From a virus, in IMG/VR virus record IMGVR_UViG_3300037961_005010, positions 31,578 to 95,577 of that record: a stretch of 64,000 nucleotides of DNA; one strand, written 5' to 3'. The position numbers and the translations under genes are program-made. This document shows, piece after piece, positions 31,158 through 62,733 of the stretch (positions within the stretch are counted from its first letter, which is position 1; each line of letters opens with the position of its first letter). The notes under the pieces were generated by a model. It saw nothing but the letters and a program-made list of their open reading frames with translations, was not told the DNA's origin and searched no databases.

Positions 31158-32411
31158 ATGAGTCAATACAGTGAAATAAGAGTTAACACTATAACAGATT
31201 CAACTGGATCTGTCGCTGTCGATTTTGAAAATGGACTTACTATAGGAGGAAAGGCACTAGACGATTCAGGCGGAGCTATTCAATTAAATAAAATAATAGA
31301 TTCAGCTGACGCGCCTTCAGATTCTGCTTCTTATTATGGCTTAATGTGGTACGACAGCGCTAACACTAGATTGAATATATACACTCCAATTGGTTGGAGA
31401 ACAATAAGAGGTGATCAGGCTCCTAGCGGTGGTGGAGGTAGTTCGAACGCAACTCATGCTTTTGCTCTTGGTGGAACATACTACAACGGAAACTATTACG
31501 TTACCGCTGCAAATCACATTGAAACATTAACAATAGCAACTACTGGTAACGCAACTGATTTTGGTGACATAACTGCTTCTGGTTCTATCGCACTAGGTAT
31601 TTCAGAAATAGCAGCAGGAGGAGATCATAGCAGAATCGTACTAGGTTCGGCGTTAGTAGATAACGGATATGGTAACGCAGGAGATCTTGCTAATGGTACC
31701 GGAATACATTACATAACTTGTGCGACCCCAGGTAATACTGTAGACTTTGGCGATCTTCCATCAGATTATTTTAATGAAAACGGAGGCGATGCTGGGGCTG
31801 GTTACATGCACTTTAGGTCCAATGGATCTGGTAGCAGCACTAGTATTGTTACAGTTACAATTCAAACTACTGGAAACGCATCTGATCTAATAGATTTAAG
31901 TGGTGCGGAGGGATATTCATTTGGCGGTGTAAGTTCTAATGATACAAGAGCGCTTGCTTTTGGTGGAAGATATGGTAACGCTTTTGGTGTTGCAGTTGAT
32001 TATTTCACTCCAGGAAATTCGTCAGTAGCAGCTGCTGACTTTGGTGATCTCTTGTTGGGTTCTAATAAACCAGCAGTAACAAACGACAATGTAAACAGAA
32101 CAATTTATCACGAATCATATAATGGCTCTGGATTTTCCTGGGGAAGTTTATCAAATACTTTAGCCTATCTTGACACAGCGACTTTAGGAAACGCAGTGGA
32201 TTTTGGTGATTTATCATCGGCTAGACAAGGAGGAGGAGCTTCGGCCAATAACACTAGAGCTCTGTTTTTTGGTGGAGAATCAAATAGTTCAAGCGATAGC
32301 TATGCACACAATACGGTTGATTACGTGACAGTAGCTACTCCAGGAAACGCTACAGACTTCGGTGATGTTTCAAGAAGAAGACAAACATGCGGTTCTGAGG
32401 GAATAGGTTAA
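31158..32411 (+). CDS. Propeller adhesin 10: short N-terminus, sister propeller of gene 5
   Basis: A 417-residue protein. Its N-terminus (VDFENGLTIGGKALDDSG, GLMWYDSANTRLNIYTPIGW) is the module of the gene at 18909, not that of its propeller sister at 23461. The propeller keeps GGDHSRIV, GIHYITCATPGN, NASDLIDLS, NSSVAAADFGD and NKPAVTNDN. A Gly/Ser hinge (APSGGGGSS) joins the two parts. It ends CGSEGIG. This combination points to domain exchange at the hinge. Confidence 0.7.
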   Translation: MSQYSEIRVNTITDSTGSVAVDFENGLTIGGKALDDSGGAIQLNKIIDSADAPSDSASYYGLMWYDSANTRLNIYTPIGWRTIRGDQAPSGGGGSSNATHAFALGGTYYNGNYYVTAANHIETLTIATTGNATDFGDITASGSIALGISEIAAGGDHSRIVLGSALVDNGYGNAGDLANGTGIHYITCATPGNTVDFGDLPSDYFNENGGDAGAGYMHFRSNGSGSSTSIVTVTIQTTGNASDLIDLSGAEGYSFGGVSSNDTRALAFGGRYGNAFGVAVDYFTPGNSSVAAADFGDLLLGSNKPAVTNDNVNRTIYHESYNGSGFSWGSLSNTLAYLDTATLGNAVDFGDLSSARQGGGASANNTRALFFGGESNSSSDSYAHNTVDYVTVATPGNATDFGDVSRRRQTCGSEGIG

Positions 32412-59645: not shown

Positions 59646-60907
59646 TGCTTTCTATAGATTTGTGGTTTGATCCACAATCTAATATATATGATGAATTATC
59701 TTTTAAACAACCTAAACACATTTGGACGAGCAGAAACCCTCGTGCTGAAATAAATTGGGAATTAAAAGAGCAACTTAACTATACTAATTTTTCTATAAAT
59801 TATAAGTCTATACAAGATGATGATTTAAATTTAAATAATAAAAATTATATCATATTCCCCTGGGTCATTCTTTTTAGATTTGAACACATAAACATTAATG
59901 AATGGCTTGAAAAATATTTCACAAGAAAAATAATAAAGTTTATAAAAATTCATAGAATAGAAGTTGTCTTTATATGGATGTATGAAGCTATTGATTGGAG
60001 AGATTTTAAAGTAAATAGCATAATAAAGTTTTTTAACAAACATAAAATAAAATCTTTTTTGCGGTTTGCAGATAATAGATTTTCATTAGATGATATAGAT
60101 CCTGACATAAGAAAATTTTGGACTTTACCACTTTCAAAAAATAGGATGTTGCCAAGATATAATTGGGCAGTAGAAGTAACACACAAAGATACTTTTGTAT
60201 TAGAAAATCCTGAAAAGTTTAAAAAAATATGTTATGTAGTAGGTAGAGCAGCTAGTAATAATTTAAGGATACTTTCTTTATTAAAAGCTCATGAAAAAAA
60301 TATACTAGACAATGACGACATTTTTTTTACTTTTACTTCAGGCATGGAGAGTGTGTCAGAAGAAGAACTTTTAGAATGGATAAAGAATAGGAAAATACAT
60401 TTTAAATCATATGAACATATTTTTAATGATGATGAAAAGATAAAAGAAATATTTAAAACTCGTGTTGTAGATAAATATGGAAATGTTTCTAATAAAACTA
60501 GAGAAGAAAAAGATCAATACTATTCTTTTCCTCAGACACACTATGCATTAGTAAACGTTGTGATTGAAACTAGAGAGTATGAACTCTCACTTACTGAAAA
60601 AACTCTCAAGTGTTTAAAACACGGTTTACCCTTTATTCCATATGCTTCTCAAGGTTCAATAAAGCATTTAAAAGAACAAGGATACAAATTTTATGATTGG
60701 ATTGATTATTCATATGATAGTATAAAAAGTCCTTATGAAAGGTTTGATGCTTTTTTCAATGAAGTATACAGGTTATATAAAATGCCTATGGAAGATTTAA
60801 TAAAATTATACAGAGATAAAAAAACTATACATATAAACGAATATAATAAATACATATATCAAAAGTCAGTAGTAGAACACATAGAAAAAAATCACATTTT
60901 ATGGTAA
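59645..60907 (+). CDS. Glycosyltransferase-like protein
   Basis: A 420-residue protein starting at the last base of the regA stop. The C-terminal part ELSLTEKTLKCLKHGLPFIP, then GSIKHLKEQGYKFYDWIDYSYD, is the donor-binding segment seen in a group of GT-B-like transferases (the SEKTxKxxxxGxPFI pattern). The N-terminal 200 residues are poorly conserved. The gene is more AT-rich than its replication neighbours, suggesting later acquisition. Sugar and acceptor unknown. Confidence 0.55.
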   Translation: MLSIDLWFDPQSNIYDELSFKQPKHIWTSRNPRAEINWELKEQLNYTNFSINYKSIQDDDLNLNNKNYIIFPWVILFRFEHININEWLEKYFTRKIIKFIKIHRIEVVFIWMYEAIDWRDFKVNSIIKFFNKHKIKSFLRFADNRFSLDDIDPDIRKFWTLPLSKNRMLPRYNWAVEVTHKDTFVLENPEKFKKICYVVGRAASNNLRILSLLKAHEKNILDNDDIFFTFTSGMESVSEEELLEWIKNRKIHFKSYEHIFNDDEKIKEIFKTRVVDKYGNVSNKTREEKDQYYSFPQTHYALVNVVIETREYELSLTEKTLKCLKHGLPFIPYASQGSIKHLKEQGYKFYDWIDYSYDSIKSPYERFDAFFNEVYRLYKMPMEDLIKLYRDKKTIHINEYNKYIYQKSVVEHIEKNHILW

Positions 60908-60925: not shown

Positions 60926-60954
60926 TTTAAATTTGGTATAGCTATAACTATATA
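60926..60954 (+). promoter_or_regulatory. Possible sigma70-like promoter before hsp20
   Basis: TTTAAA (60926-60931), 17 bases, then TATATA (60949-60954). This is weaker than the three other early promoters but has the same spacing. Start of transcription would be near 60961, giving a 56-base leader that contains both hairpins of the putative thermometer. Confidence 0.4.
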
Positions 60955-60963
60955 GATATTATA

Positions 60964-61012
60964 GGAGTGCGGATGGTCCGGCTCCACTTTAATCTTGCTT
61001 GCATAAGGAGAT
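60964..61012 (+). promoter_or_regulatory. ROSE-like RNA thermometer in the hsp20 leader
   Basis: Two hairpins lie just before the gene. Hairpin 1: GGAG (60964-60967) and CGGA (60970-60973) pair with TCCG (60977-60980) and CTCC (60982-60985). Hairpin 2: ATCTT (60992-60996), a bulged G (60997) and CTT (60998-61000) pair with AAGGAGAT (61005-61012) across a GCAT loop, covering the whole ribosome site. The TTGCT with bulged G facing the Shine-Dalgarno is the hallmark of ROSE elements, which control small heat-shock genes in proteobacteria. Melting at higher temperature would free the site. Confidence 0.65.
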
Positions 61013-61016
61013 AACA

Positions 61017-61487
61017 ATGACAGGCTTACAAACACTATTCCCACGATCATCTTTTGTTGGTTTTGATCACTTATTTAATGAGTTAGAATGGACTGCAAAA
61101 CACGCAAAGGATCACTATCCCCCACATAACATTATAAAAACAAATGAAACAGATTATTTGATTGAGCTTGCAATTGCAGGTTTCTCAAAAGATGAGTTAT
61201 CTGTTGAAGTGAAAGACAGAACTCTTACTGTAACAGGTGAACATAAGTCAAGGGGCCGTGAGTTTATTCATCGTGGCATTTCTACTAAGAAGTTTAAGCG
61301 AACATTCAGGCTGTCTGAGCACGTACAAGTGCACGGAGCAGATATTCAGGATGGTATACTTGCAATCGAACTGAAGTACGTCATCCCTGAAGAAATGCGT
61401 CCTCGTAAAATCAACATTGGTCAAAGCGAGGAACAAAATGACACAACACATACTAGCGATAAGCAACTACTTACAGAGTCCGATTGA
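61017..61487 (+). CDS. hsp20: Small heat-shock protein Hsp20
   Basis: The ATG at 61017 (MTGLQTLFPRSSFVGFDHLF) has AAGGAG six bases upstream and is preferred to a TTG at 60999. The 156-residue protein has the alpha-crystallin domain: DYLIELAIAGFSKDELSVEV, LTVTGEH, FKRTFRLSEHV and ADIQDGILAIELKYVIPEE. It is an ATP-independent chaperone; hsp20 is usual in marine T4-like phages. Its last 50 bases overlap the next gene in another frame. Confidence 0.92.
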   Translation: MTGLQTLFPRSSFVGFDHLFNELEWTAKHAKDHYPPHNIIKTNETDYLIELAIAGFSKDELSVEVKDRTLTVTGEHKSRGREFIHRGISTKKFKRTFRLSEHVQVHGADIQDGILAIELKYVIPEEMRPRKINIGQSEEQNDTTHTSDKQLLTESD

Positions 61488-61692
61488 TGCTGTACTTTCT
61501 TTTTTTAAGAGCTATAACTCAAACAGAGAACTTAGAAAAAGGCGTAATCAGACTATAAAAGAATTATCATCGTTAACTGATTATGAATTAAATGATATTG
61601 GCATAGCACGAGGCGACATACGCTCAGTAGCTGAAGGCCACGCTGATATGAAAAAAACAGAGACCAACTCTAATTTAAAGGGGTGGGTCTAA
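61438..61692 (+). CDS. DUF1127 small basic protein
   Basis: The start is the ATG at 61438 (MTQHILAISNYLQSPIDAVL), giving 84 residues and a 50-base overlap with hsp20. Residues about 34-65 (RKRRNQTIKELSSLTDYELN, then DIGIARGDI) are a clear DUF1127 domain. DUF1127 proteins are small Arg-rich factors common in Alphaproteobacteria, with some linked to RNA turnover and phosphate or carbon metabolism. The N-terminus also looks like host members. Probably host-derived. Confidence 0.8.
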   Translation: MTQHILAISNYLQSPIDAVLSFFKSYNSNRELRKRRNQTIKELSSLTDYELNDIGIARGDIRSVAEGHADMKKTETNSNLKGWV

Positions 61693-61871
61693 TGACAGCA
61701 ATAGTAAGCAATTATATATTCTCACCCTTGTCGGGTTTGTGGTCTTCTGTAGATCGATATACGCAGATAGCGGGATATTCGAGAGCGGCAGCGGAGCTAG
61801 CCAGAAATGGCTACCACGAGGAGGCAAAGAAGTGTATGCTACAACTAGCTAAATTGAGAGACGATAAATAA
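61692..61871 (+). CDS. Small alphaproteobacterial-type protein
   Basis: The ATG at 61692 overlaps the previous TAA by one base, giving 59 residues. SRAAAELARNGYHEEAKKCM resembles short helical proteins encoded near DUF1127 genes in Alphaproteobacteria. No catalytic motif. Function unknown; the pair may act together because they are translationally coupled. Confidence 0.65.
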   Translation: MTAIVSNYIFSPLSGLWSSVDRYTQIAGYSRAAAELARNGYHEEAKKCMLQLAKLRDDK

Positions 61872-61875
61872 AAAC

Positions 61876-61900
61876 TTGAGGGGCCGCCAGGCCCCTTCAA
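61876..61900 (+). other. Strong hairpin before the DoxX-like gene
   Basis: GGGGCC (61880-61885) pairs with GGCCCC (61890-61895) around GCCA, and the flanking TTGA/TCAA can extend the stem with one bulged T. No T run follows, so it is not a standard terminator. A GATAAATA, one base from the late element, lies just upstream at 61863-61870. Confidence 0.55.
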
Positions 61901-61918
61901 CATCAAGAAAGAAAAGCT

Positions 61919-62344
61919 ATGAATTTATGGAACAGAATACCCGACTTTTGTTTAAGCCATTGGCTTTTAAGAATACCAATTGCAATTGTTTTCCTACAAC
62001 AAGGTTTATCTAAACTTCCATTCTCTGTAGAAGATGCAGAAGCATTTGAACTACCTGCACTTGTTTGGTGGGTTGTAACGTATGGAGAAATAGGAGCAGG
62101 TATAGGATTACTTGTTGGCGGTTTACTTACCAAGCCCTGGTTTCCAATCTTTAAAAAATGTTACTTGCCAATGTTCGGCGATATGATAACACGTTTCAGT
62201 GGTATTACTATTTGCTGTATAATGACAGGAGTCATTTGGATAGGACAACCAGAAAGTTTAACAGACGTACTTTTATATGACAATCTACACGTATTCTTAT
62301 GGGTAGGTGGATTGTTTTTTGCATTAAGAGGAAACAGAGGATGA
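61919..62344 (+). CDS. DoxX-like membrane protein
   Basis: A 141-residue protein with four hydrophobic segments, about residues 16-33 (LLRIPIAIVFLQQGLSKLP start), 45-70 (WWVVTYGEIGAGIGLLVGGL), 95-112 (FSGITICCIMTGVIWIG) and 122-138. The first, with its LQQGLSKLP turn, and the GEIGAG in the second are typical of the DoxX family. These inner-membrane proteins are linked to redox chemistry (thiosulfate:quinone oxidoreductase subunit, and oxidative-stress complexes). It overlaps the cytochrome gene by ATGA. Confidence 0.65.
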   Translation: MNLWNRIPDFCLSHWLLRIPIAIVFLQQGLSKLPFSVEDAEAFELPALVWWVVTYGEIGAGIGLLVGGLLTKPWFPIFKKCYLPMFGDMITRFSGITICCIMTGVIWIGQPESLTDVLLYDNLHVFLWVGGLFFALRGNRG

Positions 62345-62733
62345 TTAAAACTTTACTAACTGCAACAGTATTATTCACTGCTAGCTTTAGTTTGCTTAAT
62401 GCAGCAGATGCTGCAAAAGGCGAAAAAGGATTTAAGAAGTGTAAGTCTTGCCACTCAATAGCAGAGGGTGATAAAAATAAAACAGGTCCAAATCTCTGGA
62501 ATATTATGAATAGAGGTGTAGGAACTAATGAAGATTATAAATATAGTAAGAAGTTCGCTGCATGGGCAAAAGAAAATCCAGAGTGGACAGATGAATTAAT
62601 GGACGCTTGGCTAGCTAATTCTAAAAAGTTAGTTAAAGGAACTAAGATGATGTATAAAGAGAAGAAGGAATCTAAACGTGCGGACATTATTGCGTATCTT
62701 TACTCAATGGGTGAACAGCCCGGAGAAGAATGA
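62341..62733 (+). CDS. Secreted class I cytochrome c
   Basis: The ATG at 62341 begins a 130-residue protein with a clear signal peptide (residues 1-24, IKTLLTATVLFTASFSLLNA). The heme motif CKSCH is at 34-38, TGPNLWNIMNRGVG follows, and Met103 in KGTKMM is the probable sixth ligand. YLYSMG near the end is the usual C-terminal helix. It would be exported and matured by host Ccm machinery as a periplasmic electron carrier. All expected class I features are intact, so it looks functional. A cytochrome c is very unusual in a phage. Confidence 0.85.
   Translation: MIKTLLTATVLFTASFSLLNAADAAKGEKGFKKCKSCHSIAEGDKNKTGPNLWNIMNRGVGTNEDYKYSKKFAAWAKENPEWTDELMDAWLANSKKLVKGTKMMYKEKKESKRADIIAYLYSMGEQPGEE

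Follow-up and report, generated by a model that had tools for sequence, protein, structure and literature searches.

The hsp20 locus and its leader

The window, i.e. the whole stretch of DNA analysed here, comprises 64,000 nt (positions 31,578 to 95,577) of the IMG/VR record IMGVR_UViG_3300037961_005010, the full source record being 121 kb long. Reading of the ORFs identified the record as a T4-like myovirus with clamp loader, sliding clamp, and terminase-, portal- and sheath-like genes in T4 order, and the nearest named relatives of this marine phage are Kyanoviridae. The window carries an hsp20 gene, relatives of whose product are present in 508 phage records. One paper, citing earlier work, counts hsp20 among the core genes of T4-like cyanomyophages (PMC9004378). 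The region 3' of hsp20 (window positions 61417-62733) encodes a DUF1127 protein, a 59-aa ORF, a DoxX-family protein and a c-type cytochrome, which is unusual cargo for a phage. The preceding gene stops at 60907, and the gap up to hsp20 is filled by a promoter-like octamer and two hairpins. The features of the locus are as follows.

60951 to 60958, plus strand: octamer TATAGATA resembling a T4 late promoter, 5 nt before hairpin 1, with transcription predicted to start at or near the opening base of hairpin 1
60964 to 60985, plus strand: hairpin 1, GC-rich, GGAGU-G-CGG paired with CCG-G-CUCC, with a bulged G of its own (60969) in a UGC/GG motif; fold as drawn, two-sided changes in 8 of 9 pairs
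60992 to 61012, plus strand: hairpin 2, the proposed thermosensor, AUCUU-G-CUU, loop GCAU and AAGGAGAU, with bulged G60997; fold as drawn, outer and innermost pairs covary
60995 to 60999, plus strand: ROSE motif UUGCU (anti-Shine-Dalgarno), its core invariant in alignment A3 (see below) except for the U/C position
61005 to 61010, plus strand: Shine-Dalgarno sequence AAGGAG, wholly paired inside hairpin 2 (from sequence and fold)
61017 to 61487, plus strand: hsp20, encoding an IbpA-type small heat-shock protein of 156 aa (PF00011, E 2.7e-17), with its ATG at 61017
61020 to 61025, plus strand: hsp20 codons 2-3, ACA GGC; all 47 distinct genes of the clade lack synonymous variation here, but not at other Gly and Thr codons

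The predicted fold of 60964-61020 consists of exactly hairpins 1 and 2 (-14.7 kcal/mol). Hairpin 2 is formed by the pairs from A60992-U61012 to U60996-G61008 and from C60998-G61007 to U61000-A61005, with G60997 left unpaired between them. A first-pass annotation had described a GC-rich hairpin followed by one that pairs the full Shine-Dalgarno sequence, which proved right to the base (60964-60985 and 60992-61012). The bulged G that it placed inside a TTGCT motif is G60997, and the gene that it took to be hsp20 is identified as such by its PF00011 domain. Its description of this as the defining arrangement of ROSE elements also holds, as U(U/C)GCU, which is the defining ROSE motif (PMC3669281, PMC11342760), faces the Shine-Dalgarno sequence with a bulged G in the 3'-most hairpin of a heat-shock gene leader.

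Conservation of the leader in phages

As a single sequence, 60964-61020 does not fold better than chance (z -1.06; 29 of 200 shuffles were as good), as would be expected if the leader were no more than a functionless short hairpin that happens to include a Shine-Dalgarno sequence. To this reading, however, we assign virtually no probability, as it is refuted by covariation in 86 phage leaders and is also opposed by the gene-specific placement of the element. Relatives were gathered from 80 viral contigs whose Hsp20 is 85-97% identical to that of the window, together with sets around the phages C48C1, Melnitz and Phosso. Read by eye, their leaders have both hairpins, although the stems differ greatly in sequence. 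In a plain sequence alignment of 39 close leaders (A1), 94.0% of cells pair, compared to 45-58% for versions of the structure slid along the alignment, and the covariation score is 0.270 versus 0.118 after shuffling. A covariance model built from the window clade alone (R1) gave 86 matches with E<0.5 in 100 sources (399 kb) and recovered the leader in most distant loci. On the genome of the window phage, the phage model gave one strong match (70.7 bits, the next best being 12.8).

We then used an alignment of 86 distinct phage leaders fitted to the model structure (A3), from which a minus-strand false match in A2 (L291) had been removed. Here 96.3% of cells pair and 11 of the 17 pairs have changed on both sides, with 289 cells showing two-sided changes versus 76 in shuffles. 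The covariation score of A3 is 0.551 compared to 0.139 for shuffled alignments, and none of 500 shuffles scored as high. The A3 counts are biased because this alignment was fitted to the structure; the plain alignment A1 already shows the effect. By the comparative sequence data, the leader structure is far more than chance, and the covariation in related phages that the first-pass annotation had called for is strong in both the close and the wide set. These data demonstrate the structure itself, its compensatory conservation and the invariance of its imperfect core.

The two hairpins differ in which positions are free to vary. In hairpin 1, 97.1% of A3 cells are paired, and all four Watson-Crick types are seen at several pairs. 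Its Y-G-C and G(G/A) positions are nearly invariant and the rest of the stem covaries freely (A3 columns 7-36). Hairpin 1 thereby repeats the YGC/GG bulged-G motif of hairpin 2, which we did not find described in the papers that we consulted on ROSE elements. In hairpin 2, covariation is seen at the outer pairs and at the pair that closes the loop, while the bases facing the Shine-Dalgarno sequence form a fixed core. Every aligned leader pairs the Shine-Dalgarno sequence with (C/U)-U-(U/C)-G-C-U, in which the G is bulged; the bulged G is kept in 90 of 90 ungapped rows, the core pairs in 86 of 86 aligned leaders, and a U.G pair lies beside the bulged G in 84 of 86. A better complement is only one or two changes away, yet it was never seen, which suggests that the weakness of the core is itself selected.

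The position of the element relative to the promoter-like octamer is also directly shown. Of the 86 leaders, 64 have an octamer of the form TATA(A/T/G)ATA whose last base lies 3-7 nt ahead of hairpin 1. Only 17 such octamers occur on the plus strand of the window, which gives a chance rate of about 0.1% per leader. The octamer has the form of a T4 late promoter, and TATAAAT was used for Melnitz (PMC9004378). Its place just before hairpin 1 implies that the hsp20 mRNA should begin at about hairpin 1, although this start is predicted and has not been mapped. A transcription start downstream of 60992 would have refuted the thermometer reading; the predicted start lies upstream. In several freshwater phages, we read TTGAC...TATAAT-like boxes at the place of the octamer instead. 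That promoters differ while the RNA element stays argues that phages select the RNA control itself.

Family resemblance and distribution

No match to an Rfam family was found at curated cutoffs in the window or in 20 relatives, so the curated family alone would have missed the phage element. Below the cutoff, ROSE_3 (RF02523) matches the window leader from end to end with 19.2 bits (cutoff 43), which by itself is within noise. Direct Rfam evidence at the window locus is therefore weak, as this score is below that of an unrelated minus-strand snoRNA match (21.9 bits). Low-scoring matches to SNORA44 (minus strand), HOTAIR and Avashort at the site were rejected as chance, being unsupported and either families of other organisms or on the wrong strand. 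In whole genomes of relatives (G002, G005, G006, W01 and W02), the top ROSE_3 match is the hsp20 leader, over the full model length (1-69). E-values at relatives' hsp20 leaders were 6.9e-7 (35.5 bits), 1.6e-6 (Melnitz, 34.1 bits), 2.1e-6 (33.9 bits), 1.3e-4 (C48C1, 26.8 bits) and 2.3e-4. No phage leader tested reached the ROSE_3 cutoff of 43 bits. The Rfam search proposed by the first-pass annotation stayed below threshold at the window itself, and it located the hsp20 leaders of relatives with E-values of 7e-7 to 2e-4. One relative has a further ROSE_3 match of lower score, 22.3 bits (E 0.0015), at a site away from hsp20 (G002:C1:7281-7364, minus strand).

In the reciprocal direction, a wide covariance model built only from phage leaders (R2) found a curated Pseudomonas ROSE_3 element with 30 bits (E 3e-5), the same element scoring 69.2 bits in Rfam. 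This positive control comes from OQ572409.1 (unverified Pseudomonas phage Y7), which we did not count as a phage sequence, since it contains a canonical Pseudomonas ibpA with ROSE_3 and is probably host DNA; it serves as a bacterial control. A search of 375 alpha- and gammaproteobacterial genomes with R2 gave 11 matches with E<0.001, located before hsp20 (6), dnaK (2) and rpoH (3). A gene-blind phage model thus lands only before heat-shock genes in the proteobacterial scan. Among the alphaproteobacterial loci, two-hairpin ROSE-like leaders lie directly before rpoH, which encodes sigma-32 (L354, L356 and L361), and before dnaK (L359 and L360).

Within phages, placement before heat-shock genes is likewise directly observed. 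Over 18 whole phage records, R2 gave one strong match in each of 15, at hsp20, and only noise elsewhere (one extra match, E 0.4). Two large freshwater phages (records of 116 and 356 kb) have R2 matches both before hsp20 and about 2 kb upstream, before dnaK. These dnaK leaders (L344:1501-1560 in G004, and L345 in G003) place a phage heat-shock cluster under two ROSE-type leaders. The element is present in 20 of 23 isolate or single-virus records with hsp20, namely C48C1 and Melnitz, which are in the model, and 18 detected by R2 at E<0.05; the R2-positive isolates include P-SSM2, P-SSM4, S-SSM5, S-RSM4, S-CAM1 and HTVC115P. The S-B68 hsp20 leader gave no match to the phage model, and an R2 search found no element at the distant hsp20 of Vibrio phage PWH3a-P1. 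Overall, most sampled cyanophages and most of the marine phages examined have the same structure before heat-shock genes. The finding is thus broader than the single phage gene first annotated, extending to most sampled cyanophages and to some phage dnaK genes. The annotated hsp20 starts of S-SRM01 (L326:350) and S-T4 (L329) look wrong: the ATG at the end of the ROSE leader is near L326:401 and L329:401, respectively.

The phage leaders meet the sequence-level criteria of the ROSE class: they precede a heat-shock gene, pair U(U/C)GCU with the Shine-Dalgarno sequence around one bulged G, and have a further stable 5' hairpin. The closest likeness is to the Pseudomonas ibpA ROSE element (RF02523, PMC3669281), with which they share two hairpins within about 60 nt, a GC-rich hairpin I, a bulged-G U(U/C)GCU facing the Shine-Dalgarno sequence in hairpin II, and an ibpA-type hsp20. 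Hairpin 1 also shares the UGC...GG asymmetry of the ROSE_3 consensus GAUGCC...GGGUC. Unlike Pseudomonas ROSE_3, the phage element is phage-borne, scores 19-35 bits against the cutoff of 43, has a short AU-rich hairpin 2, and has a hairpin 1 whose sequence is free to covary apart from YGC/GG. It also follows a late-type phage promoter, whereas sigma-32 promoters were inferred for Pseudomonas ibpA genes (PMC3669281). Classical ROSE elements (Bradyrhizobium hspA; Rfam ROSE) share the U(U/C)GCU/Shine-Dalgarno core, likewise placed in the hairpin nearest the 3' end before a small heat-shock gene, but consist of three to four hairpins (PMC3669281) compared to two in the phage form. Cyanophages infect cyanobacteria, in which the thermometers of Synechocystis hsp17 and other small heat-shock genes are known, one from Anabaena being described as ROSE-like (PMC4166951). 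The Synechocystis hsp17 thermometer, however, consists of one short hairpin, while cyanophage leaders follow the two-hairpin ROSE plan, with UCGCU. The structure and the family resemblance are strongly supported by this evidence.

The presence of the same leader before dnaK and rpoH bears on whether it could instead be an operator bound by Hsp20 or by host IbpA, with aggregates titrating Hsp20 so that translation rises. IbpA of E. coli and other gammaproteobacteria does bind and repress its own ROSE-bearing 5'UTR through R93, and the E. coli R93K variant is defective in repression (PMC10474464). Arginine occupies the equivalent position in most other phage Hsp20 proteins, where such feedback could act alone or on top of melting. 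Lysine is found there in 47 of 47 distinct proteins of the window clade and 40 of 40 of the C48C1 clade, in both of which the RNA element is fully kept. Since all 87 proteins have lysine, feedback is unlikely to maintain the element in these two clades, though it may add to control elsewhere; applying the E. coli residue rule to phage Hsp20 is itself an inference. Together with the dnaK and rpoH leaders, which speak against feedback by Hsp20, this makes protein feedback an unlikely though not negligible explanation, and a thermometer remains the preferred reading.

Predicted temperature response, origin and significance

Temperature-dependent opening and translation are inferred from characterised bacterial ROSE elements. 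In the two-hairpin ROSE element of Pseudomonas ibpA, only hairpin II melts, and stabilising the core kills induction (PMC3669281). Stabilising the core of a ROSE-like oppF element similarly abolishes heat induction, and deletion of the bulged G cuts it (PMC11342760). In a nearest-neighbour model, the median probability that AGGA is open at 20 °C was 0.0003 for real leaders, 0.015 for shuffled leaders and 0.044 for other genes of the window. Between 20 and 45 °C, modelled AGGA opening rose about 100-fold in real leaders versus 7-fold in shuffled ones, with absolute opening remaining low even at 45 °C. The energy model ignores the non-canonical core, so no usable melting point could be obtained. 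For the remaining feature of the ROSE class, a 3' hairpin that melts while hairpin 1 holds and translation that heat induces, there is only modelling, in which real leaders open more steeply than shuffled ones.

The small absolute opening predicted at 45 °C would also fit hairpins that merely lower hsp20 expression or guard the 5' end of a late-gene mRNA at any temperature. Hairpin 1 stands at the predicted 5' end, and stabilisation of the mRNA by a stem-loop was suggested for Pseudomonas ibpA (PMC3669281). A plain brake, however, would not require the bulged G and the U.G core to be invariant, or the element to be limited to heat-shock genes in both phages and bacteria, and searches with the phage models found the element at no other leader of the window phage. 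We consider a temperature-independent role very unlikely, and favour a thermometer.

A further complication arises when coding sequence is included in the fold. The minimum-energy structure of the window leader then trades hairpin 2 for a helix between GCUUGCAU and AUGACAGGC, which frees the Shine-Dalgarno sequence and pairs the start codon. With 30 nt of coding sequence added to the window leader, the Shine-Dalgarno sequence is partly freed in this way, and the modelled probability that it and the AUG are both free is 0.001 at 20 °C and 0.014 at 45 °C (about 14-fold), so that the two together stay closed. Pairing of codons 2-3 with GCUUG may offer a second closed state in which the start codon is hidden, and is a possible, not an established, part of the switch. 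The leader could accordingly be a two-state switch specific to this clade, in which temperature shifts the balance between hairpin 2, the GCUUG/CAGGC helix and an open state, and the invariance of the synonymous sites of ACA GGC in the clade is consistent with this. Against it, the pairing is absent outside the clade, and the C48C1 clade also conserves its early codons without GCUUG/CAGGC pairing; covariation is uninformative here because both strands are nearly invariant. On balance, such a switch seems improbable as the main explanation.

We regard it as very likely that the window leader is a short, two-hairpin ROSE-type RNA thermometer maintained by the phage, its heat response being inferred and not measured. 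This agrees with the interpretation first proposed for the locus, which is supported by covariation, the upstream start and the resemblance to ROSE_3; thermosensing as such is a strong inference from a well-studied mechanism. According to this model, a late-type phage promoter would transcribe hsp20 into an mRNA that starts at about hairpin 1. At the normal temperature of the host, hairpin 2 would pair the whole Shine-Dalgarno sequence with an imperfect partner (a U.G pair beside a bulged G) and block the ribosome. On warming, the weak core would melt, allowing Hsp20 to be made in the infected cell, while hairpin 1 would remain folded, probably shielding the 5' end or aiding the folding of hairpin 2.

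The window hsp20 is of the proteobacterial ibpA kind, and the phage copies form separate clades whose leaders still covary. U(U/C)GCU precedes the Shine-Dalgarno sequence in 42 of 44 leaders of the proteobacterial genes closest to phage Hsp20, so the gene probably arrived along with its switch. Phage copies fall into a few separate groups in a quick tree of 111 proteins (6 label changes versus 37 in shuffles), and the window Hsp20 lies within a fully viral clade of 20 (SH-aLRT 99). The number of transfers is unresolved because many inner branches of this tree are weak. We infer that an ibpA-like gene of proteobacteria was taken up with its switch, perhaps on more than one occasion, and that the bacterial promoter was swapped for phage promoters with the RNA switch retained. 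The two readings originally offered, that the phage senses temperature through RNA and that the gene was taken with its switch, are thus compatible.

The nearest cellular gene (84%) is from the Rhodobacteraceae MAG Water_Bin34 (L318, FZLS01000024.1). It was rejected as the host source, since its neighbours are phage genes, including a DNA polymerase, in phage operon order. With these neighbours and eight elements in the bin (E<0.01), it looks like phage DNA binned with that of a host, and the host was not identified. Water_Bin34 has many phage-like contigs, and at least three of its eight ROSE-type leaders are before hsp20.

Searches of 5.4 million open-access papers did not find, in title or abstract, any report of a phage ROSE element; they did not extend to subscription papers or preprints, so priority is not certain. 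The description of Melnitz included a riboswitch scan and noted hsp20 without mention of a thermometer (PMC9004378). The phage RNA thermosensor cited in a review of the field is the lambda cIII leader, in which mRNA structure likewise makes the translation of a phage gene temperature-dependent (PMC4166951). The cIII mRNA adopts two exclusive conformations, being translated at low temperature and closed at 45 °C (PMC4166951), whereas warming should open the phage ROSE element, which regulates a chaperone gene and belongs to a widespread family. The cIII-type pattern is not met in our energy model, in which opening rises with temperature.

Taken more broadly, it is probable, with somewhat less assurance than for the window leader alone, that marine T4-like phages (P-SSM2 and P-SSM4 among them) and other phage groups have ROSE-type thermometers as a core regulatory element inherited within phages, which would control hsp20 and, in some large phages, dnaK. 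These would form a family of heat-ON switches of translation encoded by viruses, which kept their temperature control in RNA when a phage promoter took the place of the host's. The element has been present in genomes sequenced for two decades, lying under the Rfam cutoff, and the phage alignments are deep enough to tell the required ROSE features (the YGC/GG bulged-G motif of both hairpins) from the free ones. If the interpretation is correct, a widespread viral family of heat-ON RNA thermometers would stand beside the single cold-ON case of lambda cIII cited in the review (PMC4166951). A conserved thermometer before hsp20 would mean that warming of the infected cell makes the chaperone necessary to the phages, and would provide a direct, testable tie between ocean temperature and phage gene expression.
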